The notes beneath the pieces are model-generated. The model had not been told where the DNA came from. It did no database searches and saw only the letters and a list, made by a program, of their open reading frames with translations. A stretch of DNA of 64,000 nt. Origin: Siphonodentalium dalli. Taxonomy: Eukaryota; Mollusca; Scaphopoda; Gadilida; Siphonodentaliidae. The stretch's first letter is position 1; every line of letters begins with the position of its first letter. Of the stretch, positions 7,214 to 47,005 are shown in pieces. Location: NCBI GenBank assembly GCA_032622095.1, contig CP136065.1:209788151-209852150 (forward strand). The letters are read 5' to 3'. The position numbers and the translations under genes were made by a program.

Positions 7214-7675
7214 TGTGATCCGCCATAGCAAATCCAGTCGTAAGTCAGGATTTTTTTTTACCCTGTGCCAATGCATTCTCTTATATATGCGAGTCGACCA
7301 TAGGTCGCCTCGCATATATAAGAGAATGCATTGGCCTAACAATTTTTTACAATTTTAATAATATTTTCTCGTATTCTTTAACAATTTTATAATTTCACCC
7401 ATACATAGCCCCAGACAAACATGAGCAGACGACACTCTTCTATATGCTTCTATATATGTGTGGGGCTCCCTGCAGGGTAATGGATGTTTTTTTATTTTAT
7501 GTTCTAAAAATTGTAAGAAACATTTATTTTTAAAAAATGATAAAAAATTGTTAGGCCAATGCATTCTCTTATATATGCGAGGCGACCTATGGTCGACTCG
7601 CATATATAAGAGAATGCATTGGCACAGGGTAAATGAAATCCCGACTTACGACTGGATTTGATATGGCGGGTCACA
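7214..7675. mobile_element. MITE-1 copy a (TA-flanked, hairpins inside the inverted ends)
   Basis: The termini are inverted: TGTGAYCCGCCAT...ATGGCGGGTCACA, with TA on both outer sides as in Tc1/mariner-type insertion. Next to each terminus is a palindrome of about 67 bp with perfect 26 bp arms (CCAATGCATTCTCTTATATA...), an ATA centre and an inner CGACC/GGTCG pair. One lies at about 7269-7335 and its inverse at about 7557-7623. The 200 bp core is AT-rich. No transposase is encoded, so this is a non-autonomous element of about 462 bp. Confidence 0.85.
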
Positions 7676-10400: not shown

Positions 10401-10489
10401 ACGTAGAAATTGTCAAATATGTACCCCGGTGTCCAATATGGAGCACCTCAGAAAACATTCGCAGGGCCCTAAAATGTATTTAACACAGG

Positions 10490-11010
10490 ATTTCCCATTC
10501 AAATCGATTTATGTCGATAAAACTCTTATTTTTCAAAGTTTTAAGCTGAGACTTGGTGCGTCTGTGTAAAAGTCTTATATATTCCTAAAATGACAGGTTC
10601 CAGCACGTAATTATGTTTTAGATGGCAGAAAGAATTTTTTTTCGATGATAAATTTTCATATAGGATTTGCCATTCAAAACGATTTATGTCCATAAAACTC
10701 TTATTTTTCAAATTTTAAGCTGAGACTTGGTACGTCTGCGTGGAATACTTATCTATTCCTAAAATGACCGGGTCCATCGCGTAATTATGTTTCAGATGGA
10801 AGAAATGAATTTTTTTCGATGATAAATTTTAACATGGGATTGTCCCATTCATATTGATTTATGTCGATAAAACTGTTATTTTTCAAAATTTTAAGCTGAT
10901 ACACGGTGTTTCTGAGTGGAATACTTATATATTCCTAAAACGGCAGGGTCCAGTACGTAATTATCTTTCAGATGGAAGAAATTGATTTGTTTCGATGATA
11001 AAAATCCAGC
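10490..11010 (+). repeat. 175 bp tandem repeat, three copies
   Basis: CGATTTATGTCGATAAAACT occurs at about 10504, 10680 and 10855 (spacing 175-176). The shared downstream text is TTATTTTTCAAA, AAGCTGAGACTTGG, TATTCCTAAAATGACAGG, CGTAATTATGTT and TTTCGATGATAAA. This looks like a short satellite array. Confidence 0.9.
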
Positions 11011-13850: not shown

Positions 13851-15876
13851 GATTACATTCCTGCCATGTGTTCTATTTTGTTTCTGGTGTCTAGTTGTGC
13901 GTTTTGTTTTTCATGTATGTTGTTTCTTCCGTTTCATGTCTCTTTGCATTTCGTCTTCTGTGCATTCGGAAAAAAACAGCTTTGCGCTCGCAAAATAAAA
14001 TTTCGATGTTGCATAAAAGAGCACTCGAGCTCCTCTTCTGGATCCAAACTGGGCAACTCCGTGGCACCTCTCATGACAAAGTATTCAACCTCAAACCAAG
14101 CTTCGATTCAACATCTTTCACCTCATCCACCGACGACATGCCATAAAGAAAGAAAACAAAGACGTTCATGGTCCGCGCTGAACAGAAATTTACTTTTACG
14201 AATAATTTGCAAAATGAAATTTATTTTTGCAAAATTCATTTAGAATTTGCCAAATGCTACCCCTGGTAGTATCATTTCCTGCAACCTTGAGTTTTATGTT
14301 TCGACACTCGCGGTTGGAACGACTTTTGATATTGATAGGAAAGCAGTTAGTTAATAATTATACACGCATCCTTATTTTGGTTTATCATACAATAATAAAC
14401 AAATTACCGAACAATAACATGATAGAAGGGTTGATTCATCAGAAGGGCACACCACAAGAGGATTAGCTATGTAAACACCATTGATTGATTGACCAATATA
14501 TTTTCGACTTTCTTGAGGAATTAAAAATTGACTTGCTTAAACTTTTGCCAAATAAAAATATTTTTTGCCAAATGTTAATTATTTTTGCCATTAGCAAATT
14601 TGGCAATTGGCAGCGCGAAACCTGAAGACATGCATTGGTGTCAGGACAAGCTCCGCTCAGACCAAGATCGTCCTGGTGCCGATTCTTTTTCTCTCTCGAC
14701 AGCTGCTCATTGGCTGAAATAGTATGAGAGTCAGAACAAAGGGACTGTGGTGTTATTCAATTTAAGGGGGAGACGCACGTTTTGCATAAATACAGCCAAT
14801 AATGGCAAGAGATTTTCAACAAAGGATTTCTCTGGTTCTATCATCAAGTCATTGTATATATAATCTGACGAATTATTAAGAGACGTCAAAAACAATGGAT
14901 TTTAATTCATTTGAGAGGTATGAAAATATTATTTTATTTGCTGTCCCTTGAGATCAGGCTTCATTTGTATCATAATGTTGAGTTAGATTTTTAATTGCAT
15001 AATATAGCATCATAGCCCCCCATATATTATAATGAACAATAAAGCAGTAACAAATATTCCAGCCCATTGAAAACAAATGTTGATATATAGTGTGGTCCAC
15101 TCAAGCAGGGGGTAATCAACTGGAATTAGGTCACATTGCTAAGAGATATGGTGGTCAGCTTTAACTTGGTTATGAACCCATGAACCACAACTCATGACAG
15201 CCCATTTTTCATTAATCATCAGGCATCACATGAACATTCTCAAATATTGAAAATATTATTTACGAGAAGTTGCCTTTCTTTAAAATAATCATTAACTTTC
15301 ATAAATCAAGAATAATTAAGTCTCCTCTCATGATGTTGAGATATGATATCATGGATACATGAACTGCACTTTTGAAAAAAAATAATATATATTTTACAGA
15401 AGTTCTTGGTACCTGAAAACAATGAAATTTTAAATATTGTCCATGCCATAAAAGTAAAACCAATGAGGTTATAATATCCAACGGGTCCATGGTTCTTAAA
15501 TATCGTGTCATAATAATCGATTGTACCAAATTTCACAAAGAAAATCCTGACAATTTTCAGAAAATTAATTTTAAAATACCAGGAAATTTTGGCAAAACAT
15601 GCGTCTGACACTTAACCAGAGAAATATAATTTCTTGGCCTTTTTCTGTCTTAATCACCAGGTCGATATGACATTTCATTCATCCATAGTAACCCGAAATG
15701 TGTACTTTCGTGGCAGATGGGGTGACCTGACTTGATGTCTTAACATTACACTCGATATCCTAATATAGAGCAAAATCAATGAGTTATCCTTGTAAAAACG
15801 TTGCATCAATGATGAGTGAGCAGTATTTTAAGTGTTTTATTTGTTTCCTCGAGTGCACTGCACCTGCCCGCGTAAA
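13851..15876. other. No gene confirmed; AT-rich
   Basis: Short frames near 13866-14460 overlap in several phases and look like chance. TTTGCCAAAT-type words near 14250 and 14540-14620 hint that an insertion split one tract. Nothing else is supported. Confidence 0.35.
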
Positions 15877-16018
15877 CATGTTTTCCCTCACGAACACGTT
15901 TTCCGTCACTCATGTTTGACCAATGGGATTCCTCATACATGTGTACCTGACGTGATTGACCAATAGGATTCCTCGTACATGTGTACCTGACGTTGTGGTA
16001 TGGACGGAATATATAAAA
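15877..16018 (+). promoter_or_regulatory. TATA promoter with two doubled upstream modules
   Basis: A perfect TATA box, TATATAAAA, lies at 16010-16018, about 37 bp before the ATG at 16055. Directly upstream is an exact-period 40 bp duplication (15916-15955 and 15956-15995). Each unit holds GACCAAT (CCAAT box), ATTCCTC, ACATGTGTACC and TGACGT (CRE/bZIP half-site), with few differences between copies. Further up, an 18 bp module, roughly CATGTTTTCCCTCACGAA, is also doubled (about 15877-15912). Repeated boxes at fixed distance from a TATA box suggest strongly regulated transcription of the following exon. Confidence 0.65.
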
Positions 16019-16054
16019 TGGCAGGGACAGAGAATCGCGTGACAAACAGCAATC

Positions 16055-16133
16055 ATGAACTATCTACCAATCATGCTCGTGTCTCTCTGCTTTGTTTTAG
16101 CAGATTCCACAACTATCCGCCGGGCAGAACCAG
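16055..16133 (+). CDS. First exon of a putative small secreted protein (signal peptide)
   Basis: From ATG 16055 the frame encodes 26 residues. It begins MNYLPIMLVSLCFVLA, a textbook short signal peptide with probable cleavage after Ala16, and continues DSTTIRRAEP with a dibasic RR suited to propeptide processing. The exon ends at CAG|GTAAGT, a consensus splice donor, after one base of the next codon (phase 1). A TATA promoter precedes it at the expected distance. I infer a secreted peptide or small-protein precursor. Family unknown. The acceptor at 22878 has matching phase and is the best downstream exon I see, which would make the intron about 6.7 kb, filled with MITEs and tandem repeats. 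Nearer exons could have been missed. Confidence 0.65.
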
Positions 16134-16357
16134 GTAAGTTCATCATTATATAATATGTACGCATGTAACCTATACATCTGCATGTAGCTCGGCTAAAATG
16201 TGACGATCCTAATGGTGCGTTCATACATTGGTAATGTTGCACGGTATTGTGGTTTGCAGGAATTTCGTCGAAGAAAACGATATGGCGCCAGACTATAAAC
16301 TGAAACAAGCATATACAATGCATCTGTACCACAGCTAACTACATGCGAAGTAAAAAA

Positions 16358-16770
16358 TGTGACCCGCCATATCAAATCCAGTCGTAAGTCGGGATTTTTT
16401 TTACCCTGTGCCATTGCATTCTCGTATATATGCGAGTCGACCATAGGTCGCCTCGCATATATAATAGAATGCATTGGCCTAACAATGTTTTATCTTTTTT
16501 TTAAATAAATGTTTCTTACAATTTTTAGGACATAAAATAAAAAACATCCATTACCCTGCAGGGAGCCTCACACATATATAGAAGCATATAGAAGAGTGTC
16601 GTCTGCTCATCTTTGTCTGGGGCTCTGTATGGGTGAAATTATAAAATTGTTAAAGAATACAAGAAAAACATTAAAATTTGTAAAAAAAATGTTAGGCCAA
16701 TGCATTCTCTTATATATGCGAGGCGACCTATGATCCCGACTTACGACTGGATTTGATATGGCGGGTCACA
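16358..16770. mobile_element. MITE-1 copy b (internally deleted)
   Basis: Same ends as the 7214 copy (TGTGACCCGCCAT ... ATGGCGGGTCACA). The first hairpin is complete, but the second is cut after GCGAGGCGACCTATG, so about 50 bp are missing before ATCCCGACTTACGACTGG. The right flank is TA but the left flank reads AA, so the target duplication has mutated. It sits in the putative first intron. Confidence 0.85.
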
Positions 16771-17187
16771 TATATTTAATACCACCTGTAGCGATGCTAC
16801 CTGTACTTTGCCTGTAAATAGCACACAATTATATCCCAAGAATAAACCATACAGTTGTTTGAAGGCAAATACCAGTAGCACCGTTACAAATGGAACTACA
16901 TAAATCTTACTTCTAATCTCGTTCGCTTTGGTAAAGATGCATGTTATGTGCACGTTTCCGTTCATGTCCTGGCACCATGTGGTTTTCTATTGCAAAATGC
17001 CTTCAAAACAAACCGTACAAACTTGCCAGCATATGAACTAGCGCTATAAAGGCGACTGACGCTATACACAGTTGTGCTGTATTGGTCACAGTAATCGGTT
17101 TCTAATAACAAAGGTATCCCTGTTTAGAAAAGTGCGATAAAAGCAAATTGTTATTTCAAATTGTAAATCAAGTTGGATATTTTTGAT

Positions 17188-17247
17188 GAAACATGCATTC
17201 AGTTTGGCCAAGAACTGCTAGCTTTAGTTCTAAATTCAAACAGCTTT
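17188..17247 (+). repeat. 60 bp direct repeat, upstream copy, flanking MITE-2
   Basis: ACATGCATTCAGTTTGGCC, AAGAACTGCTAGCTTTAG and TTCTAAATTCAAACAGCTTT recur in order at about 17645-17705, one base shorter. The two copies bracket the element 17250-17642 exactly. This is far longer than the 4 bp TTAA duplication expected from its transposition. Confidence 0.85.
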
Positions 17248-17249
17248 AA

Positions 17250-17642
17250 CCCTTTACCCAACAAACCGGCCAAAACCGGCCAAATAAAGCTTCAACAGCC
17301 TAAAATATCTTCGGTCTGTCTCAATAGAACCATACAAATATGGATATCATTGGAATCGGCTCCTTGACCACATTGTGATAGTTACAGTTATGCACTGTGC
17401 CAATGCATTATCTTATATATGCGAGTCGACCATAGGTCGCCTCGCATATATAAGAGAATGCACTGGCCTAAACAAAATCTTTTTTTAACACTTTTTTACC
17501 ATTTTTTCTTACATTCTTTAACAATTTTATAATTTTTAATGTGTTAAGCCAATGCATTCTCTTATATATGCGAGGCGACCTATGGTCGACTCGCATATAT
17601 AAGAGAATGCATTGGCACAGGGCCGTTCTGTTGGGTAAAGGG
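17250..17642. mobile_element. MITE-2 copy a (TTAA-flanked, piggyBac-like ends)
   Basis: Ends are CCCTTTACCCAACA ... TGTTGGGTAAAGGG with TTAA on both sides (17246-17249 and 17643-17646), the insertion hallmark of piggyBac-type transposons. The left part carries AAACCGGCCAAAACCGGCC and AGCTTCAACAGCC text. The rest holds two inverted copies of the same 67 bp hairpin as MITE-1, plus a core sharing TTCTTTAACAATTTTATAAT with MITE-1. No transposase is present. Confidence 0.85.
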
Positions 17643-17709
17643 TTAAACATGCATTCAGTTTGGCCAAGAACTGCTAGCTTTAGTTCTAAATTCAACAGCT
17701 TTAACTGCT

Positions 17710-18551
17710 GACGATTGCACACATTTTCGTCACGCAGCTAGAGAAGTCCGTTCGATCACAAACTGTGTTCAAGCTCCAATTCTCGAATCTTCAGCTCAAC
17801 GGGCTGAATTTTCTCCCAAATGAACCAAAAAGTTAAATATATATTTATATATATATATAAATGTAGCGTGAACAAATCCTGTTTATTGCGCGATTTTATA
17901 AACATGTGTGTCTTTGTGACAATTTCCATAATCTGTGTACCTTAATAACTATACACAAGACACGTTTCAAATTCAGTATTAGTGGTGAACTGGTCTTTAT
18001 CCCATGTATTTGTTTTGTGGTTTACTGTTACCCAGGTACGCTGAGACTGGTATTTTGTTACCCAGGTTCGCTTAAACTGGTATTTTGATACCCATGCTCG
18101 CTGCAACTGGTATTTTGTTATACCCAGGATGTGAAAATCTCATCTTGAGTGTAGTCGTTTGGTTCAATCAATTTGAACAATGATTGACATCGCTATGGAA
18201 ACCAATGGCAAAATAATATAGTATTGTCGCAAATTGATTGAACGAACCGACAATATAGTCAAACAACACCAACTACATGTAGACGAGATTTGCCCACCTG
18301 CAACCTGCATCACAAAATACCAGTTTCAGCAAACCTGGGCAACAAGATGCCTGTTTTCGGACCTGTGTTACTGAATATTCCGAACCATATATTGGAGTAA
18401 CAATAAATGCAGCAGTAGTGAACATTTATCTCCTCAGCTGTCACTCCAATTGCTTGCTAAATTTAATTATAAATTGCCGGCCAAATTATTAGCTCCGTCG
18501 GTTACCAAAATGATTTACACGTGACTGAAACAAACAAATATTAGAATAACT
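17710..18551. other. No gene; short repeated phrase
   Basis: A phrase like ACCCAGGTTCGCTTAAACTGGTATTTTG, shortened in places, recurs about three times at 18030-18125, and inverted near 18305-18345 (CAAAATACCAGTTTCAGC). The latter makes a loose inverted repeat of about 300 bp span. Confidence 0.45.
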
Positions 18552-18821
18552 ATGGCAGAAATCGAAACATTTCTGGTACATTTCGGTTTTGCCCTAATAC
18601 CAGTTCTGATAGTAATGTACCGGCTGAACGGTTGGTCAGAGGGTAACACCAAACTGCAAGCAGCGTCACCTCCGGAAGTACTCCAAAAAACACTGACAGA
18701 GTGCGGGGTAATATTCCACGCATACACGCATATTTCTGTATTTTTAGACTTGGAAATTCCAGTAAAAAGTTCTTATATGTCAGTTGTTTTTGTTCAGAAA
18801 AAATATTCTACCCATGTGTAA
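18552..18821 (+). CDS. Possible first exon of a membrane protein
   Basis: ATG 18552 has a favourable context (ACTATGG). The first 30 residues contain one hydrophobic segment, FLVHFGFALIPVLIVMYRL, followed by a polar region with PPEVLQKTLTECG. Possible splice donors fall after the CAGAGG near 18642 and the TGCGGG near 18706 (GTAACA, GTAATA). Beyond these the frame becomes AT-rich and less protein-like before its stop at 18819. No family is recognised, no TATA box is seen and no partner exon was located. A chance frame remains possible. Confidence 0.3.
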   Translation: MAEIETFLVHFGFALIPVLIVMYRLNGWSEGNTKLQAASPPEVLQKTLTECGVIFHAYTHISVFLDLEIPVKSSYMSVVFVQKKYSTHV

Positions 18822-19760
18822 ACGAATAATGGGGTTACAAATATTTTCTCGTGATGATCAACTCAGCAATGTATTTGTAACCCCAGTAACCCGGTTACAG
18901 ACCTTGTTCTTATACCAATCATAAATATCGCTTCAAATGCATGTTATTGTCATGTTAGTACTCTGTGTTGTGTAAACAAACGACATGTTATTTAAACAAA
19001 CAATATGTAAAGAGTAAGCGATAAGCCGCGAAGACCCCACTAATGTGATATTTGGTTACAAAAGTGTCATGGTCATTACTGTAGAATTTGGAAATATATT
19101 AATCTGCGCCTATTTTTTGTCATATATATTTTCAAATTATCAACACCGACGGGAGATTTTTTGTCATCACTTGATTTAAACAATATTTATTTGCCCCAAT
19201 TAATATTACATTTATGATTAACAACATTTTGATGATGGACTCGTAGAGATAGAAAAGGGGAAGAGGATCTAGAAGCAAGCAGATATCTGCTTTTGTTGAG
19301 CTATCTCCTCAGAGAAGTAGAAATATTGTAGAAATGAAGAAAGCGTGAATGGCAAGTAGCCGAGTTCGAGAAACAATAGGTTTATGAAATGATGGTATAT
19401 TAATATTATGATGTACAGACGAGTATGTGTTGAAAGGATAAGTAAGCGTATGGAGGTAATAAGGAGAGGGGGTATATTCACGAGGAATACGAGACAGAGA
19501 CAGGTAGAGCAATAGAGATAGAGAGTGGGTATGTGAAAGAAAAGTCGGTACCACTGTTGTGAAAATTTTGAAACTAACTTATTAAACGAACTATTTTAAA
19601 ATGAGTTATTTTGAAACTAAATATGGGAACTCAATGTGGGAACTCCGTGGAATATCGGTGCTATGCCGTTGAATTGTTTGTCATCACTGCACCTTTTATA
19701 ACTCTTTTGAGAACTGAATCTGACTAGGGGAGTAAAAATCTCATAGAGTTAGGAATAAAA
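18822..19760. other. No feature recognised
   Basis: AT-rich; purine-rich stretch around 19250-19530 gives open minus-strand frames of low-complexity composition that I do not regard as genes. Confidence 0.4.
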
Positions 19761-20018
19761 AACCGGCTTATGGTATAGTAGTCGATCGAGAGTGGCGAGT
19801 GAGATAACTCAAATCGGCTTATGGTATAGTGGTCGATCGAGAGTGCCGAGTGAGATAACTCAAATCGGCTTATGGTATAGTGGTCGATCGAGAGTGGCGA
19901 GTGAGATAACTCAAATCGGCTTATGGTATAGTGGTCGATCGAGCGTGGCGAGTGAGATAACACAAATCGGCTTATGGTATAGTTGTCGATCGAGAGTGGC
20001 GAGTGAGATAACTCAAAG
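19761..20018 (+). repeat. 51 bp minisatellite, five copies
   Basis: The unit TCGGCTTATGGTATAGTGGT + CGATCGAGAGTGGCGAGTGA + GATAACTCAAA repeats at exactly 51 bp with few changes. Because 51 is a multiple of three and the unit lacks stops in one frame per strand, both strands appear open. That is a by-product of the period, not evidence of coding. Confidence 0.95.
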
Positions 20019-20282
20019 GGTATAAGTTCATGCACTGGCAAGTTTACACGGCATTTTGTTCAGGAATTGTCTCATAGAAAACCCGATGGTGCCATAGTAT
20101 GAACGGAAACATACATATAAAATGTATATTTATCAAAGCTATATAATGACATGAGAAATAAAATATCGGTAGTTCCACATGTAAGGTGATACTAACACAT
20201 TACCTTAAAATACATGTATGATTGATTCTTGCAATATAATTGCATGCTATTAACAGGCAAATTTCGATAGCATCGCCAGTAG

Positions 20283-20648
20283 CAGGGGGGGGGTCGGAAA
20301 AAATTTGCAACATATAGGGCCTAGGGGGTGGGTCCCCCGCGGCCGGACCATTTTTTAAAAAATCCACTTTTTGTCATTGTTTTCACCGATACAAGAAATT
20401 TGAGTTTTGCTATGTCTTCAGTGGCCACTTAAGAACATAATAGGTATAAGTTACTGGTTTTATTTGCTTTGAAACTCATTATTTCTGTTTTCATTTTAGT
20501 GGGCGTGGCACCTAAAAATGGAAAAAATTTGCAAAAATAAATTTCAAATATTTTTTTTCCATTCTTTTTGTTTTTTTGTGTAGTCCAAGGGTAACTAAGG
20601 CCATTTTCAGCGTGATATGTTTTTACTTTTGACCGACCCCCCCCCCCT
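20283..20648. mobile_element. hAT-like MITE with poly-G terminal repeats
   Basis: The left end is CAGGGGGGGGGTCGG and the right end CCGACCCCCC...CCT. An 8 bp direct repeat GCCAGTAG flanks it (20275-20282 and 20649-20656). An 8 bp duplication with CAGGGG-type ends is what hAT transposons leave. The 366 bp interior is AT-rich and non-coding (AAAATTTGCAA, TGGGCGTGGCACC). The G/C runs differ in length by a few bases, as expected of homopolymers. Confidence 0.75.
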
Positions 20649-20747
20649 GCCAGTAGTGCAAGTTCTTATTGAGTTAGCTGTGGTATACAAATGCATTGTA
20701 TAAGCATTTTGGAATTCGGTTTCTGGCATATTACAGCTTTCTATATA

Positions 20748-21206
20748 TGTGACCCGCCATATCAAATCCAGTCGGAAGTCGGGATATTTTTACCCTGTGC
20801 CAATGCATTCTCTTATATATGCGAGTCGACCATAGGTCGCCTCGCATATATAAGAGAATGCATTGGCCTAACAATTTTTTATCATTTTTTTAAAATAAAT
20901 GTTTCTTACAATTTTTAGGACATAAAATAAAAAACATCCATTACCCTGCAGGAAGCCCCACACATATATAGAAGCATATAGAAGAGTGTCGTCTTCTCAT
21001 GTTTGTCTGGGGCTCTGTGTGGGTGAAATTATAAAATTGTTAAAGAATACAAGAACAAATTATTAAAATTGTAAAAAATTGTTAGGCCAATGCATTCTCT
21101 TATATATGCGAGGAGACCTATGGTCGACTCGTATATATAAGAGAATGCATTGGCACAGGGTAAAAAAAATCCCGACTTACGACTGGATTTGATATGGCGG
21201 GTCACA
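20748..21206. mobile_element. MITE-1 copy c (complete)
   Basis: Complete copy with TGTGACCCGCCAT...ATGGCGGGTCACA ends, TA on both flanks, both hairpins, and the core phrase CACACATATATAGAAGCATA shared with the 16358 copy (the 7214 copy carries the core inverted). It is the best template for the family in this window. Confidence 0.9.
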
Positions 21207-21269
21207 TATACCGAAATGCCTGCAAAAGAATGCCTGGTAAATTTGCAAGTGTATGAGCGTATACCTTAA

Positions 21270-21440
21270 CCCTTTACCCAACAGAAGGGCCCTGTGTCAA
21301 TGCATTATCTTATACAATGTGGTCAATGAGCCGGTTCCAATGATATCCATATTTGTATGGTTCTATTGAGACAGACCGAAGATATTTTAGGCTGTTGAAG
21401 CTTTATTTGGCCGGTTTTGGCCGGTTTGTTGGGTAAAGGG
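21270..21440. mobile_element. MITE-2 copy b (internal deletion, inverted)
   Basis: TTAA-flanked (21266-21269, 21441-21444) with ends CCCTTTACCCAACA and TGTTGGGTAAAGGG. Only a stub of one hairpin remains (CAATGCATTATCTTATA), and the CCGGTTTTGGCCGG side is complete. The deletion removed both hairpins and the core, leaving 171 bp. Confidence 0.85.
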
Positions 21441-21444
21441 TTAA

Positions 21445-22190
21445 TGGGTAGTTTGAGGTCACACACAGCGATTGATTCGAACGATATGAAGATTCCGGCT
21501 AATTTTATTTCAGAAAACATGGTTTTAAATCTTCGGTTGAAAAGATATATAGCATGTATTATAAAACCCTTTAAAACCCAGCTCCTTTGTTTTACCTCGA
21601 CTTTCTATTTTTCCGAATGAAGCATGGACAACGAACTCACACGGTGTCCTCTATTCGAGAAATAGTTCACTTCTAACGCCCGCCAACAATAACAAACATC
21701 TGCATAGTGCCTATAAACCCCAGGTAATACAATTCGTTGTCAGAATAGGCAGCATGTTAATTTTCATACCAGTTGTATCTATCGAATTCAAACATAACAC
21801 GTCATCATAATAGAGCTGCGCCGAACGATATTACTTTGACAATTCGCAAGACAAAACTATCCCAAAATGCATTCGTGTCCAAGATACAGATAATTGCGTC
21901 GACAGTATATATTACGTACATATACTACGTTATATTTATACAGCGAAATCAAATATTTTATAATATGTGCGTATATCGAAGGTTAATTTCGAACAAATAT
22001 GTACTGGACAGCTGTATATGCCTGGAAAATTGTTTTTTACTTAAACATATTTTATTCGTATATAAATATACAAAATTGTTACCGCGACAAAATCCACGTG
22101 CAATTGCCACTCACACAAGCCGTGTCAATGGGCGTTGTTTTGTGACTGCCAATGACTATTTTCCCCAGAGAGCATCAAACTAGAATATTA
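21445..22190. other. No gene recognised
   Basis: AT-rich. A long frame at 21773-22183 lacks protein-like composition and has no ATG at its start (TTG); considered chance. Confidence 0.4.
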
Positions 22191-22195
22191 ATAGG

Positions 22196-22400
22196 AACCA
22201 TAAGTTGTATATACTGGAAAATACCACTAATAGTCCCTTCAAATGTTATCACTCGCGACCGGATTGGCCTTCTGCATGTAGATAACTGGGGTTCTTATAT
22301 TAATATGAACCACAAGCTTTATACATTGGAAAATACCACAAATAGCCACTGCAATATTATCACTCGCGACAGGATTGGCCTCCTGTCCTCCCCCATAATG
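22196..22400 (+). repeat. About 120 bp tandem duplication
   Basis: TGGAAAATACCACTAATAG and TTATCACTCGCGACCGGATT recur about 115-120 bp apart, first near 22213-22266, then near 22328-22378. Confidence 0.8.
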
Positions 22401-22439
22401 TTTATGAACCTTTTCAAATTGTTGGAAATGTCATTCTGA

Positions 22440-22600
22440 CACATCATTGGAAGCACATGGACACAACATCATTTGGTAGCACCTGGACACAACATCATTT
22501 GGTAGCACCTGGACACAACATCATTTGGTAGCACCTGGACACAACACCATTTGGTAGCACCTGGACACAACATCTTTTGGTGTAGTACCTGGACCTCCGC
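22440..22600 (+). repeat. 26 bp minisatellite, about six copies
   Basis: The unit TGGACACAACATCATTTGGT + AGCACC repeats at 26 bp with one or two substitutions per copy. Confidence 0.95.
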
Positions 22601-22878
22601 ATAATCTTCAGTATATTGAATGCGCCGGAGTAATATGTAGACGTAGGAAGCTTTTCACCAACTTTTCAGTCGAAATGTTGGACTCAGATGGAATTTTCTC
22701 AACCATAAGGTATGTCCAATAGCTTGAGATACCAATTGGAAAATCCAATCCCAAGGGGTGTGAAAATGAAATGCTAGAACTTGGAAATTTGGTGAAGTTT
22801 GAGACAGTCCCAAGCCCCTGAGAGTACCTAATCTACAGGAACCCTACTGTCCAGTGATTAATTCTATATATCACACAG

Positions 22879-23002
22879 ATTCTCCAAGCCGGTTGGGAAT
22901 ACTGAGGACGTTACTATCGAGATTATTTGGCAGAGGGGTTATAAAGGATGCATCACTGAAGGGACTTCCATCAAAGTTCAGAAAGCAGATCGCCGGGCAG
23001 CG
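22879..23002 (+). CDS. Putative second exon of the secreted protein: cationic amphipathic segment
   Basis: The exon follows a plausible acceptor (TGATTAATTCT...TCACACAG). Read in the phase left by the donor at 16133, it encodes 41 residues with nine Arg/Lys and two Asp. Leucines are spaced every three to four residues in the first half (LGILRTLLSRLF), and a KFRK basic cluster lies near the end. The segment looks like an amphipathic cationic helix, as in some secreted defence peptides, but I do not recognise a family and function is inference. Two donors compete: CG|GTGTGA at 23003 and GT|GTGAGT at 23005. The first keeps the next candidate exon in frame. The frame itself is open to 23157. Confidence 0.45.
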
Positions 23003-23268
23003 GTGTGAGTATTATAATAATCCTAATTGCTCTCTCCATAGCCCTTTATTTCTCTCTCGTCCTGACTCATGCACTCACCTCACAAGCTGCAAAACAGAGC
23101 TATGTCTGACTGTTGCCGGCATGTGTATTTTCTCAATTATATCTAACATTTTTTATTGAAGTGTTTTGTGAGTTACTATTCATTCGGGCTTGATCTGGAC
23201 CATTTTCAAAGGAATATGGACAGTTCAGTTTCTCAGTATAATGCAGAATGAATTGTAACCTACAAAAG

Positions 23269-23383
23269 ACTTCGCAGGGGACTGAACTCTGCATGGAGCT
23301 TGATTGAATACAAGCCGGAACTACTTCGTGTTGACGTTGTCACCAAGAGCGATGGCGTACATTACGTCAACGGTGAGCTTCCG
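23269..23383 (+). CDS. Possible third exon of the secreted protein
   Basis: After CTACAAAAG the phase required by the 23002 donor is open to a TAG near 23437. It reads protein-like text (LRRGLNSAWSLIEYKPELL, RVDVVTKSDGVHYVNGELP). Two good donors lie inside: AACG|GTGAGC at 23373 and CCG|GTATGT at 23384. The acceptor has a poor pyrimidine tract, which lowers confidence. The segment starts with a dibasic RR, again a possible processing site. No later exon could be identified. Confidence 0.3.
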
Positions 23384-23439
23384 GTATGTTCCAGAATTTA
23401 CGAGTTTTTTATCAGACTTAAAACACAATTATAGTAGTA

Positions 23440-24235
23440 TAGACGTAGTATATCAATAGCGATACAGTTAATGGTTGAACTTATTCGACACAATGGTGTG
23501 GAATAGGTGCAGGACACAACTGACATAATAATCTCAACTAATTATTTTAATGAATTGACTTGGTGCGGAAGGTGCATTCTCACATTTCAATCGAGCACCG
23601 AAATATATCCTTGTGCCGTCCAAAAAAAAAATGCGCGTTGTGTTCTATATGTTTATTTCCTCGTGTAGAAAACGTGCATGAATGGGCATTTCCATGGAAA
23701 TCTCCGCAGCAAAAGTTATAGAGTTGGAAATATTTCTGCGGTGACTTTGTGCGGTATTGAAAACAATGCATAATGTTCTATTAGAAAGTTGATGTATTTA
23801 TTTTTGAATTTGATTTTTTTTTTACAAAATTAGGTCAAGTGTTGTAATTCCAGAAAAATAATTCTCAAAAATAAATTTATTGCACAAATTGCCTATTTAC
23901 CAAACCAAGCCGCCAGCTAAATGTTATCTCTGTTATGGCTACTTTACTTCCCAGACAACTGCTTCATATGTAACTTTTACTGGGGAGATTTGCATGGAAA
24001 TCCCCATTCAAAATTGGTCACTTGATCTCCCCCTTAAGTCACAGACTTCCGTAACGTCAAAGCTCAATGAAAGCGTGATGTTCTATATATTCACTGCTGG
24101 CGTTGGATAACGAGTATTATCTGTTAGGGATTTCTTCTATAATATATTGTTGAGCTTAAAATGTGTTACACGTTCCTCTCCTATTTTCAGTATGTTTACC
24201 ATTTCTATGCTATTTTGAACACTTATATAATGTAC
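23440..24235. other. No feature recognised
   Basis: AT-rich. Weak inverted similarity between 23690 (GGGCATTTCCATGGAAATCT) and 23985 (GGGGAGATTTGCATGGAAAT); no boundary could be set. A good acceptor-like CTCCTATTTTCAG ends at 24189. Confidence 0.35.
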
Positions 24236-26222: not shown

Positions 26223-26223
26223 G

Positions 26224-27521
26224 CATGACCACATAACCAGTGTTGTATATATACACGAAATATACGGTTATACAGGCACGACCACATAACCAGGTATGTA
26301 TATATACACGAAATATACTGTTAAACAGGCGCGATCACTTAACCAGGTATGTGTATATACACGAAATATACGGTTATGCAGGCACGACCACATAACCAGT
26401 GTTGTATATATACACGAAATATACGGTTATACAGGCACGACCACATAACCAGGTATGTATATATACACGAAATATACGGTTATACAGGCACGACCACAAA
26501 CCAGGGGTGTATATACACGAAATATACGGTTATACAGGCACGACCACATAACCAGGTATGTATACATACACGAAATATACTGTTAAACAGGCGCGATCAC
26601 ATAACCAGGTATGTATACATACACGAAATATACGGTTATGCAGGCACGACCACATAACCAGTGTTGTATATATACACGGAATATACGGTTATACAGGCAC
26701 GACCACAAACCAGGGGTGTATATACACGAAATATACGGTTATACAGGCACGACCACATAACCAGGTATGTATACATACACGAAATATACTGTTAAACAGG
26801 CGCGATCACTTAACCAGGTATGTATATATACACGAAATATACGGTTATGCAGGCACGACCACATAACCAGTGTTGTATATATACACGGAATATACGGTTA
26901 TACAGGCACGACCACAAACCAGGGGTGTATATACACGAAATATACGGTTATGCAGGCACGACCACATAACCAGTGTTGTATATATACACGAAATATACGG
27001 TTATACAGGCACGACCACAAACCAGGGGTGTATATACACGAAATATACGGTTATACAGGCACGACCACATAACCAGGGGTGTGTATATACACGAAATATA
27101 CTGTTATGCAGGCACGACCACATGACCAGGGTGTATATACACGAAATATACTGTTATACAGGCGCGACCACATAAGCAGGTTTGTATATATACACGAAAT
27201 ATACGGTTATACAGACAGGACCACATAACCAGGGTGTATATACACTAAATATACGGTTATACAGGCACGACCACATACCCAGGGTGTATATATACTAAAT
27301 ATACTGTTATACAGGCACGACCACATGACCAGGGTGTATATACACGAAATATACTGTTAAACAGGCGCGACCACATAAGCAGGTTTGTATATATACACGA
27401 AATATACGGTTATACAGACAGGACCACATAACCAGGGGTGTATATACACGAAATATACGGTTATACAGGCACGACCACATAACATTTGTGTATATATACA
27501 CGAAATATACTGTTATACAGG
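26224..27521 (+). repeat. Minisatellite of about 52 bp, roughly 25 copies
   Basis: The unit ACATAACCAGGTATGTATAT + ATACACGAAATATACGGTTA + TACAGGCACGACC recurs at 50-54 bp. Variants of the middle (GTGTTGTATATATACAC, GGGGTGTATATACAC, GGTATGTATACATACAC) are interspersed in higher-order order: blocks of three to four units recur (26400-26700 resembles 26640-26930). Long open frames inside are by-products of the repeat. Confidence 0.95.
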
Positions 27522-27522
27522 C

Positions 27523-30329: not shown

Positions 30330-33300
30330 AATGCTATCATTGCGTACCGAATAAACATGATGATAAATTCGTGGGCTACACATGGAGGGGGTTTACAGAC
30401 AGACAATGGGAATTGGTTAACCCCACAATAGAATATGGCGTACCATATACATAAACACTTTCAGTGAAACTAAAAACGATAACTCTAGAATGCACATACG
30501 AAGCATTCCTGGTGGTGGTTATGTAATCCTAATCCCATTGATATCCGTATACCATGACTGTGATATACATGTATGCGCGGTCGAAAACCAAACTCATATT
30601 ATTAAATATATATACGTGTATTATTTTCGAATGTGATATATAGCAATAATGTCAATAATATTAAATTGTCTGAACATTACATGTGCTCTCCATATACGCA
30701 CGAACATGTATCAGCACATCATTGATATGTGTGGGTGGGGTCATGTTGTGCTTTGGTACCAAACTCACATCATGTGCACCTGACAGCTTTCTCCGTCAGT
30801 TTTTCCTCATTCGATTGAGACAATATTTATATTCCGAAAGCCGCCACGCTCTCTTTCTGCGGCCGGGTTCATTATCGCCTGAGTCGTTATTTCGTGGGAA
30901 TCTGGATACAGAATCTGGATTCAGATTATGGATTAGTGCCCATACGACTTGTTCGGTAAAAGAACAGACCAGAATCAGTAAACGAACAGACCGTAATCGT
31001 AATATCGTGGTAATCCAGATTCGGATTCCGATTCCGATTACGGACTCAAATGTTCGTAATGTAAACACACCGAGATTTCGCCACCTCTGAGTTTAAAAAA
31101 AACACAATAAAACATAAGAATCCGTCTCTTGTGTACAAATTATTGCAGAATATAAAGGATCTATATCAAAAAAATTTAAATGCGGAGACAAATTTGTGTT
31201 ATCAACTGTAAACGGGAAGAATATTACTGAAATTAGCCAAATAATAATGTTATTGATAGCAACGCTGGGGGAGCACTTCGGTTGAACGCGAACTTGAAGC
31301 AAAGCATTGTCGATTTCATTGTCACTTTCATCATATCATGTTCATTTCATAATTCCACCCATAAAATACCGCCCGAACGCATGTCCATTTCAAATTCGGT
31401 GGATACGTCACCATTGACCGAATTAACGTGAACCTGCATATATATGTCTTCTGCTTTGTTCGTTATTATATGTTCCTTCTTATTCAAGAAATAGTAGGAT
31501 TATTTTATATAGATGGGTTATCAGATATACTTATGTACTATCAATTCCTATAGCAATTTCATATTAAAAATGTGTCGTTTCGTCATTTTACACAATAGTC
31601 TCTGTATAAGGAAGAAACACAGACATTTTTAGGCCAACGTGCTGTACAACAGTTGGAAAATAAAGCTTTGCCCATGAATCTAATGGTGTGGTTTTGTGAT
31701 CGCACGTGAACTCATCTCCCAATCGCACAAACACAAATGTAAAGCTTATTCTAGGATCTCAGTACTATGTGGTGCAAATGTCAGTCAATTTATTGATTAA
31801 GTACCCACACGTACAAGTTCTAGTGTCGTGGCTAGAGGTTTCCTCAAATTTCCGACCAACTGCACCACACACCCTGAACCAAACATCAATCTCACAGGTT
31901 CGCAGAATTCCATTTTCACCCCCTTGGAAATATCCAACTTGACACACCCTAAGATTGGAATATAACCAACTTTTACTGGTTGAAACAAATCAAACAATGA
32001 TAACAATTCCAACCTATATATGGTGTCAAATTAATGTCCAATTAATGTTGTGTCATGCATGACATTTCGAACTTCTGGAAATGTACCAAAGTTTAATTTA
32101 GACACATTTATTTAAAAATATTTGTCAAATTTAGATAACACATGATATATAACACATACATCTGTTTATACAGACAACGAGATTGGAGGACAAGTGCTGA
32201 CTCACTTCATGGTACCCCTCTCACATATGTTATTATACTGAAAAATAAATAATTAGTAATGGTAAAGCAACATGACTAAAAAATCAAGTTTAACATATAT
32301 ACAGATCACCGGTCACCACCTCCCCGAGTTAGTCATAAGATTGTATATGTATTTATTTAAAATCGGGCTTGTTTGTTGCGTTTGCTGGTTTGTACGTATC
32401 ATTATTTGGAACAGTTAGTCAAAAGAATCCTGATTTGCCTCACGTATGAATGACTGTACAGCTAAGAAAATTGTACAAAAGTTCGGGGGCGGGGTGGTCG
32501 AGACACACAACCAACCCCTATCGCCACGTCCCTGTACAACTGACAACTTTCATGTGTTTTCCACAACGTCTTCGGAATTTGATTCAGGAGACATAGAGCT
32601 GTTTGAAATGCTTGCCCTCAACAATAAACACACCTTAACTTGAAAAAAGATGCGATTAAGTCGGATTGGCAGCTAATTAAGTGCCATGTATTAACACATA
32701 GAAGCAAAGCATGACTTTCACAACAAACATGAACTTTATAACTATAAGATACAAATGATACTTGTGTCAAATACATGAGCCATATTTGACGCTGTGAGAA
32801 CATTAAACATAGTATCGAAGACCACGTGGATTTCAAAATCTGACCTAGAATCTGGAATTAGCCCGGCCTCCGTAATCGGATTCGGATTCTGAACCCGGAT
32901 TCCCACGAAATAACGACTCTGCTTCTCGTAGACTCGGTTCTACTCAGCTGGGTATATGGAATCACTGAACTAAATGGTTTCCCAAAGGCGACAGTGTTAA
33001 CGTTTCGGCCAAATTCAGTGAATTGAAGCCTGCAGGCCATACCAGTGATGTTTGCCCAGCTAGATTGACACCAGTTGATCACGAAAATGCGAGAAAAACC
33101 ATAGGTCATGTGTTTACTTTTTAAAAATAAATCCAAGTGTACGATAGGGCTATCCCACAGCCAAATTTGATCTGGAAAAACTCAGAACTACAGCAGCTAG
33201 TTAAATAAATTTCCCGCTCACAAAAATCCATTCCCCCATTCATTCGCCAGTTTAAATTATTTAGATATGATGTACAAATAAAATAAACGCGATGTCATCC

Positions 33301-34059: not shown

Positions 34060-35535
34060 AGAATTACACTATATAACTTTTGGTGAATATCGGTGACTAA
34101 AACATTCTTTTCAATGTTAGTGCCCTCCTCTCCCCATCCCTGACCCAAACGGTGGCGTCGTTAACCCACATGATTTGATTCCTCGTATCATTGGAGAAGA
34201 ACGGAAATTAGTGCTAAACATATTTGTATCTACTTTGGTGCCCCTCCCCTCTCCATTCATGACTTTTGACACATTTAATCCGCGTACATTAGACTCCTGA
34301 CACGAGGATGATTATTTATGAGTGGTTATCGGCGACTAAACATATTCTTATTACATTTTTTTGAGTGCCCCCATCTCTCATTCATACGGCACCAATTTGG
34401 CGTCTTTAGACCACACGATTATAGATTCCTCATATCGCGGAGAAGAATATGTATCAATTTGTGCCGCTCTCCCCATATGTGCACCCTGACTAGAACGGCG
34501 CCATATCATGGAGATGATTATGTACAAGTATGGTGGTAAAAGGTGACAAAAATAGTTCATAATTTTTGCTACCCGCCCTTTTCTGGTCATGACACCAACG
34601 GTGTCACTTTAGAAAATTCTAACCCACACCATTATCTTCCTCGTAAAAGGTTACCCCTATTAGACTCCCTTGGTGCTATCTAGATGGTCCTGCGTGAAGT
34701 TATATAGGACAGACAGACAAATACATTCGCAAATATAGGCACTCCTCCATGCCCCCATGACTTGAACACTGTTGGCATCTTTAAACCACACAATCAGACT
34801 CCTGATATTATGGAGATGATTATGTATAAGTTTGTGGTAATTTGCGACTAAATAAATTCTTATCACATTGAGTGACCCCCCCCCCCCCCCCCCCAATCTC
34901 CCACCCAAAAGGCACCATGTTGGCATCTTTAAATCACACGATGAGATTCCTCTCGCATCATGGAGAAGAATGTTTGACAATTTGGTGCAAATCGACACTA
35001 AATATATTTTGTTATTAATTTTGGTGCCCCTCTCCCCTTCAGTGCACCCCTGACTCGAATGACGCCACCCTTTGCAACTTTAAGTTGTACGATTAGACTC
35101 CTGATATCATGGAAATGATTATTTATAACATTGATGTTAATCAGCGACTAAACAAATTCTTATCAAATATAGTCAGCCATCGCTCATCCAAAACGGCGCC
35201 AATTTGGCATCTCTAAATCAAACGATTAAATTCATTGTATCATGGAGAAGAATGTGTATCAATTTGGTGGAAATAAGACCTAAAAAATATTGTTATCAAT
35301 GTTGGTGCCCCTATCCTCTTCCTTGCACCCTAACTCGAACGGTTCCATTGTTGGCATCTTTAAACCACACCATTAGATTCCTAATATCATGGAGAGGATT
35401 TCGTTATAAGTTTGGTGGAAATCGGCGAGCAAATTTGTTGCCTCCCCTCCCCCTTTTCTCCCATGACAACAACAGCGTCACTTACGAAAATTCTAACCGC
35501 ACCATTATCTTCCTCCTAAAACGTTACCCCCGTTA
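34060..35535 (+). repeat. Dispersed tandem repeat R3, second and third blocks
   Basis: Same half-units as at 28160. One block ends near 34710 with CACCATTATCTTCCTCGTAA and a GGTGCTATCTAGATGG phrase. The next runs 34725-35535 and is cut inside the same terminal phrase (CCATTATCTTCCTCCTAAAA, CGTTACCCCCGTT) where a MITE-2 fragment begins. Confidence 0.85.
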
Positions 35536-35867
35536 GGTCGCCTCGCATATATAAGAGAATGCATAGGCTTAACACATTAAAAATTATAAAATTGTTAAAG
35601 AATGTAAGAAAAGATGGTTAAAATAGTGTTAAAAAAAGATCTTTTTTAGGCCAATGCATTCTCTTATATATGCGAGGCGACCTATGGTCGACTCGCATAT
35701 ATAAGAGAATGCATTGGCACAGGGCATAACTGTAACTATCACAATGTGGTCAAGGAGCCGGTTCCAATGATATCCATATTTGTATGGTTCTATTGAGACA
35801 GACCGAAGATATTTTAGGCTGTTGAAGCTTTATTTGGCCGGTTTTGGCCGGTTTGTTGGGTAAAGGG
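35536..35867 (-). mobile_element. MITE-2 copy c (one end lost)
   Basis: It begins inside a hairpin (AGGTCGCCTCGCATATATAA), keeps the core and second hairpin, and ends TGTTGGGTAAAGGG with TTAA (35868-35871). The other TIR is missing, so repeat R3 and the MITE have been joined by deletion or recombination. Confidence 0.85.
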
Positions 35868-35885
35868 TTAAGGAGGTGGTAATAT

Positions 35886-46232: not shown

Positions 46233-46599
46233 ATATAAATATTCTGAACATGCTGCTATATTATTTCAGCAATATATTGTCAACTATTGTCAACAACGCA
46301 GCAGCCTGTCCATAATCAAAAAAGGCCGATTCAACATGAAAGCCTCGCAACTTTAAGTTCATGTTCGCTGATTGGCTAAATTGCGGCCACGATTCAGCTA
46401 CAGTTATGTATTGAATTAAGTATATAGCTTCACTATGCTGTGTTATATGAAATCTTGTCTTAGTTTACCCTTCTTTTAGAATTTTATAGAAGGTGACTAA
46501 GTTAATGAAATATAACCGGGGGTATTAGTGATTTTTTTCAATCTAAAAATTCTTCTGAATGCTACATTCTCTGAGTGAGCAAAGTAACTAGTTTGACTC
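46233..46599. other. No feature recognised
   Basis: AT-rich sequence between the unknown coding remnant and the LINE RT fragment. Confidence 0.4.
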
Positions 46600-47005
46600 G
46601 CTATTCGTTCTTAATCAAATGCTTCATGTTTTCAATTTTGGCGATTCCATGATTAAACGGTTGGCCATTCTATATGAAGACGCTAGTTCGTCCATCCTGC
46701 TTAATGGTCACATGTCACAACGTTTTAAATTAGGACGTGGCTGTCGACAGGGTGATTCCATGTCCCCGAATATGTTTCTCCACTGCGCTGATGTATTAGC
46801 AATGTTGACAAGACAGAATGACATAATTAAAGAAATAGTCCTCGGTGGTTCAGTGTATAACATATCACAGTACGCTTACGACACCAACGTCCATACTTGA
46901 TGACAATGAAAGAAGCATACGTAAGGCCTACCCAATTCTTGACCTATATGTTCCAGTTTCGCATCAATCCGGAGAAAGGTCAGGCGGTGTATAAGATCAC
47001 AAACA
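46600..47005 (+). pseudogene. LINE reverse-transcriptase fragment with damaged catalytic motif
   Basis: The frame reads VFNFGDSMIKRLAILYEDAS, then SSILLNGHMSQRFKLGRGCR, QGDSMSPNMF, LAMLTRQND and SQYAYDT. These are RT blocks of LINE proteins (NG...F.L.RG.RQGD..SP..F, then YADDT). The catalytic YADD reads YAYD: codon 46877-46879 is TAC instead of GAC. A stop follows at 46898, but the usual next block survives in another phase as FQFRINPEKGQAVYKI up to about 46995. It cannot be the upstream part of the 43081 element, because it lies downstream on the same strand. An LTR begins at 47025. Confidence 0.8.

Follow-up and report, generated by a model that had tools for sequence, protein, structure and literature searches.

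A probable pair of duplicated genes for small secreted basic proteins in the scaphopod Siphonodentalium dalli

Do a signal-peptide exon and a basic exon that are separated by 6745 bases of repeat-rich DNA form one gene, and what might such a gene encode? The question is raised by a 64,000-nucleotide stretch of contig CP136065.1 (here C5) of the Siphonodentalium dalli genome, C5:209788151-209852150, which we refer to as the window and whose positions are counted from its first base. A preliminary description made from the letters of the window had proposed a secreted cationic protein gene with two exons and a possible third. Based on comparison with the remaining genome (2,226,750,531 bases in 9 contigs were searched), we propose that exons 1 and 2 very probably form a genuine animal gene whose product is a small, basic, secreted protein, and that this gene very probably belongs to a two-member family with a diversifying basic exon. 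The window gene is ordinary in kind and new as a member. As a duplicated secreted cationic protein gene, its likeliest role is host defence of the antimicrobial type or that of a mucosal secretion peptide, an assignment to which we give slightly less than an even chance.

Exon 1 (16055..16133, plus strand) reads MNYLPIMLVSLCFVLADSTTIRRAEP and closes in phase 1 at the donor G/GTAAGT, where the stroke marks the splice point. Its ATG at 16055 lies 45 bases beyond a TATA box, TATATAAAA, at 16010; the box and the similarity to a sister copy delimit a promoter and short 5' leader (15900..16054, plus strand), and transcription probably starts at about 16040. Cleavage of the signal peptide after VLA is one of several sites permitted by the simple -3,-1 rule. 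A scan of the window for an ATG, a hydrophobic core and GGTAAG, criteria chosen after the exon 1 site was known, returned one site on the plus strand and none on the minus strand, compared with a mean of 0.05 per strand in 100 first-order shuffles, none with a TATA box. When any GTRAG donor was allowed, 228 kb contained two such places on the plus strand, namely the window gene and its sister, and three on the minus strand.

The sister was recovered by searching the genome with window DNA 15841-16260, which yielded seven matches: the query itself, a same-strand match of 82% identity 182 kb downstream (C5:209986444-209986627), and five short ones that all fall within the last 54 bases of the query. 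Identity between the two promoters is 82% over 15951-16126 and likewise 82% over 15900-15949. Exon 1 of the sister, at C5:209986553, retains the TATA box, the 45-base spacing between box and ATG, a signal peptide (MNSLVIVIVALCFVLAKASTTIRPA...) and the phase-1 donor, and thus the TATA box, short leader and signal exon of the preliminary description are both present and conserved. The sister exon, however, continues over 319 bases, through an acidic Thr/Pro-rich repeat.

Exon 2 (22879..23004, plus strand) reads DSPSRLGILRTLLSRLFGRGVIKDASLKGLPSKFRKQIAGQR and lies beyond intron 1 (16134..22878, plus strand). It is preceded by an acceptor, is in phase 1 at both ends, and its open frame holds 10 Lys or Arg residues against 2 Asp or Glu before closing at a GTGAGT donor, as had been described for a phase-matching basic exon at this place. 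A masked protein comparison of both loci, from which minus-strand hits were discarded, gave a weak match to this exon (expectation value, E, 0.011) about 10 kb downstream of sister exon 1, at C5:209996748 (L029:349-450), where the sister reads DTPTRGEWLRTLIERIFQGMVQRALNLARIPSRL. We regard this match as firm because the DNA alignment has the same acceptor (CACACAG/AT) and the same GTGAGT donor in both copies, with 35 of 40 bases identical from the donor onward; within the exon it is ungapped up to a 24-base length difference. The shared donor opens the 5' part of intron 2 (23005..23098, plus strand), in which 23062-23084 also matches the sister. Two patches of intron 1, 18224-18291 and 22184-22300, are common to the sister's 9876-base intron in a collinear comparison of the plus strand. 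Within 228 kb the first matches the sister and nothing else; the second has, besides the sister, a further match in its local duplicate at 22297. Repeat-masked parts were excluded from the protein and collinear-patch comparisons alike, amounting to 42% of the window and 52% of the 30-kb sister stretch. In the window, the part common to both loci extends over about 15643-23084, which is best explained by a duplication of about 7.4 kb. Since an independent duplicate repeats the two exons with order, phase and strand unchanged, exons 1 and 2 appear to be parts of one gene, as had been proposed.

The family seems to have two detectable members. Allowing up to three mismatches, genome scans with the exon 1 core pattern and with the pattern of the exon 2 donor and following intron each found the same two loci, and none with the reversed controls. 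The best non-self hits in 228 kb are the sister's exons (E 3.9e-5 for exon 1 and 3.3e-4 for exon 2; next best 0.77 and 2.3), and two-sequence profiles retrieved the same loci with nothing further below E 0.4. However, window exon 2 as a query against the whole genome, both as protein and as DNA, did not retrieve even the sister's exon 2, and more distant copies may therefore escape detection.

Substitutions between the two copies are our best evidence for the proposed reading frame of exon 2 and for change of the protein rather than of the DNA. The proportions of differing replacement (pN) and synonymous (pS) sites are alike in exon 1 (0.151 and 0.157 over 24 codons), whereas in exon 2 pN is 0.421 and pS 0.123 over 34 codons (Fisher p 0.0042 on rounded counts); the first, second and third codon positions of exon 2 hold 16, 14 and 5 changes, and amino-acid identity is 38%. 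The replacement excess is absent from the other two frames (p 0.78 and 0.33). Of the 68 sites at codon positions 1 and 2 of exon 2, 30 differ, compared with 5 of 40 sites in the adjoining intron (p 0.0006). The contrast with noncoding sequence remains when both patches of intron 1 are left out, at 30/68 against 24/148 sites, although the noncoding tracts were chosen by similarity and their divergence is biased low. This pattern supports exon 2 as a coding exon under diversifying selection.

An excess of replacements in one frame alone argues against dead DNA and against a neuropeptide. A chance resemblance or a dead gene pair might be suspected from the repeats in the introns, from the repeat that begins at 23099 immediately after the conserved stretch, and from a terminal exon that was not found; yet both exons keep their order, phase and splice sites, and neutral decay would give similar pN and pS, as seen in the two other frames, making this explanation very unlikely. 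We hold it equally remote that the gene encodes a neuropeptide or hormone precursor cut at dibasic sites, which the signal peptide, the small size and the RR in exon 1 would suit. The RR is RP in the sister, and mature neuropeptides are normally conserved, whereas here the basic exon has changed faster than the intron beside it and, unlike in neuropeptide precursors, there is no conserved flanked mature peptide. Of the neuropeptide or host-defence build that had been put forward, only the second part survives, as inference. Of the dibasic sites noted in exons 1 and 3, the first is not conserved in the sister, and the exon proposed to hold the second is a repeat.

The candidate third exon at 23269, described as reachable in frame, was rejected. 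It spans two dispersed repeats (together 23099..23621, plus strand), recognised by their similarity to other places in the genome: 23099-23271 is 87% identical to two of them (L004 and L005), and 23270-23621 mostly 68-76% to several loci. Used as a protein query, this exon matched at 150 places, its own included, these being all the scored ones of 687 candidates, and some of the matches are broken by stops. It is also out of phase with the conserved phase-1 donor, from which it reads WD-stop or YFAGD-stop. Unspliced read-through of exon 2 was not adopted either: the frame is open in both copies, but in the window it enters the dispersed repeat and in the sister a CT microsatellite, and 23062-23084, the last patch that the copies share, is read in a different frame in each. 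An anchored comparison of phase-1 acceptors across both loci for a replacement third exon gave a best score of 36 with poor acceptors, which 1 of 60 shuffles equalled or exceeded, and we claim no exon there. With the closest acceptors that keep the phase, the protein would stop after a few more residues, as SAKQSYV-stop at 23087 in the window and RSIS-stop in the sister, though these ends are unproven.

The net charge of the basic segment is +8 in the window copy and +3 in the sister copy, and neither contains cysteine. In the window it has 2 Pro among 42 residues and includes RK, with KR and RR absent. A single-sequence AlphaFold2 model gave three short helices with a mean pLDDT (predicted local distance difference test) of 73 and a pTM (predicted template modelling score) of 0.32, a weak result from which the segment is perhaps helical; the helical moment of the sister exon is marginal, being reached by 38% and 8% of shuffles. 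With criteria fixed after the exons had been seen, a search for basic exons of 60-260 bases in phase 1 at both ends and with a net charge of at least +2 printed exon 2 alone within the gene bodies (in the window one donor with either of two acceptors, in the sister a single candidate). At a net charge of at least +3, the 8 kb past exon 1 of the window gene and the 12 kb past that of the sister each held one donor, against a shuffle mean of 0.15; over all 228 kb the count was seven on the plus strand and one on the minus strand, so that such exons are rare but not unique.

A conserved signal exon followed by a diversifying second exon is typical of toxin families such as those of cone snails and spiders, which are usually large and cysteine-rich. 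A venom or skin-gland peptide aimed at prey or predators would fit this arrangement, but is improbable given a second exon without cysteine and only two copies detected.

Under a defence role, the signal peptide would direct the product into the secretory pathway, as signal peptides generally do, and the basic segment of exon 2 would be the active portion, directed at a partner that itself changes quickly, for example microbial membranes. The acidic Thr/Pro-rich stretch of the sister (net -16 against +3 for its basic segment), which the window copy lacks, might then serve as a neutralising or mucin-like spacer. Several points weigh against this proposal. Rapid evolution fits reproductive or venom proteins too, and the selection signal comes from one gene pair and 34 codons, with sub-blocks of exon 2 giving an excess in the same direction that is weaker (p 0.02-0.11). 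The exon had been called amphipathic, but the helical moment in the window is matched by 49% (11-residue) and 90% (18-residue) of shuffles. Acceptor searches of the window and sister loci found no terminal exon, and searches of Pfam, NCBIfam and PDB found no homologue outside this genome. A rapidly evolving reproductive protein of gametes or seminal fluid, under selection from mating partners, would have the same anatomy, and the replacement excess and basic charge fit it equally; nothing specific counts against it, and we rate it unlikely.

The surroundings of the gene pair bear on a further alternative, a mucous or structural secretion component whose basic segment binds polyanions and has no part in defence. 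The region between the two genes contains, at C5:209959487 of the minus strand, a secreted precursor whose long poly-Thr stretch is accompanied by an acidic tail and a phase-1 donor. A genome search with this precursor, its poly-Thr omitted, returned 11 matches that all fall on C5 in the interval 209.669-209.960 Mb; we read them as five firm loci and a weak one (209669429, E 2.55). The three precursors that were read (L046, L049 and L050), two of them through their first exon, have this same build, with MKLQIIVVLVFLSYGVSA or MRLQIIVVLVFISYGVSA as the signal and a poly-Thr stretch that is mucin-like; their second exons were not settled by comparison, recent duplicates being alike in their introns too. 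The window gene sits within this cluster (C5:209669429 to 209959487), whose members and the sister gene may have a secretory theme in common. The sister's acidic Thr/Pro-rich repeat and the secreted poly-Thr precursors around the pair are in keeping with a mucous component, but structural proteins need no diversification at replacement sites and homology to the poly-Thr genes is not shown; we consider this reading unlikely. Returning to a defence role, a bolder form would make the pair a new, perhaps lineage-specific family of cationic defence peptides that are secreted, one from a short precursor and the other from a precursor with a mucin spacer, in a mucosal secretion locus where antimicrobial and mucin-like parts are swapped between precursors. 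We regard this as a rather doubtful extension.

The first exon of the third precursor is followed on C5, in the stretch of about 209.935-209.955 Mb, by a long tandem array with the repeated reading FKLTGDSVWIGVSF; a similar one lies behind the L050 precursor. The window itself contains about 25 copies of a 53-base unit at 26223-27522, five copies of a 51-base unit at 19760-20017 and three copies of a 174-base unit at 10479-11002. Copies of a single short palindromic repeat resembling a miniature inverted-repeat transposable element occur at 7261-7629, 16404-16760, 17237-17647, 20753-21210, 21266-21444 and 35530-35877, as well as around the sister. A 2-kb element at 30912-32921 is 86% identical to L017:7842-9811, downstream of sister exon 1 and on the opposite strand. 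Weak reverse-transcriptase similarity was found at 46592-46897 (RVT_1, E 0.0034, under the Pfam cut-off). Molluscan haemocyanin, tried as a phylum marker, had no match in this genome, but it had none in 14 control genomes either and so carries no information here.

In agreement with the preliminary description, which recognised no family, Pfam, NCBIfam and PDB hold no relative; we do not claim absence from the literature or from other genomes. The window product had no match in Pfam or NCBIfam, and the sister had one weak Pfam match far under the cut-off and six weak NCBIfam matches under it; the best PDB sequences (E 0.24 for the window, 0.018 for the sister) are not relatives. What began as a guess from the letters is now a gene pair with independent support and a peptide that can be tested. 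An active product would represent a new cysteine-free family of defence peptides found through gene anatomy and selection, not homology, and the poly-Thr cluster around the gene would be a place to seek more of them.

Among known systems, frog skin defence peptides consist of a signal, an acidic propiece and a cationic peptide, with a variable basic C-terminal part. The present pair resembles them in its signal part, its variable basic part and, in the sister alone, an acidic spacer, but animal group and gene structure differ and a sequence relation is not shown. Closer in precursor style are the myticalins, linear cysteine-free antimicrobial peptides of mussels that have a coding sequence with a phase-1 intron, a cationic mature peptide and an anionic extension (PMC12294457). 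The same study places the anionic portion C-terminally behind a dibasic site, gives exon 1 as untranslated, and describes subfamilies B and D as Arg/Pro-rich (PMC12294457). Here, too, a signal peptide precedes a cysteine-free, strongly cationic exon 2, the coding sequence is cut by a phase-1 intron (donor between 16133 and 16134, and likewise in the sister), and an anionic low-complexity part is present in the sister alone. Unlike in myticalins, that part is N-terminal of the basic segment, there is no Arg/Pro-rich bias, and a TATA box lies 45 bases before an exon that carries the ATG. Of four features tested, two agree with myticalins and one does not, and we do not claim membership.

Mature myticin is cysteine-rich; unlike myticin, defensin and mytilin, exon 2 has no cysteine array in either copy. 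For myticin-C, two linked genes are inferred and two introns are described; variation in the signal peptide is close to neutral, and the mature and C-terminal parts bear signals of selection, for which the authors favour balancing over directional selection (PMC3164099). The scaphopod genes likewise form a linked pair with two proposed introns, a near-neutral signal exon and a downstream part with a selection signal, and myticin-C appears to be the closest published pattern among those compared.

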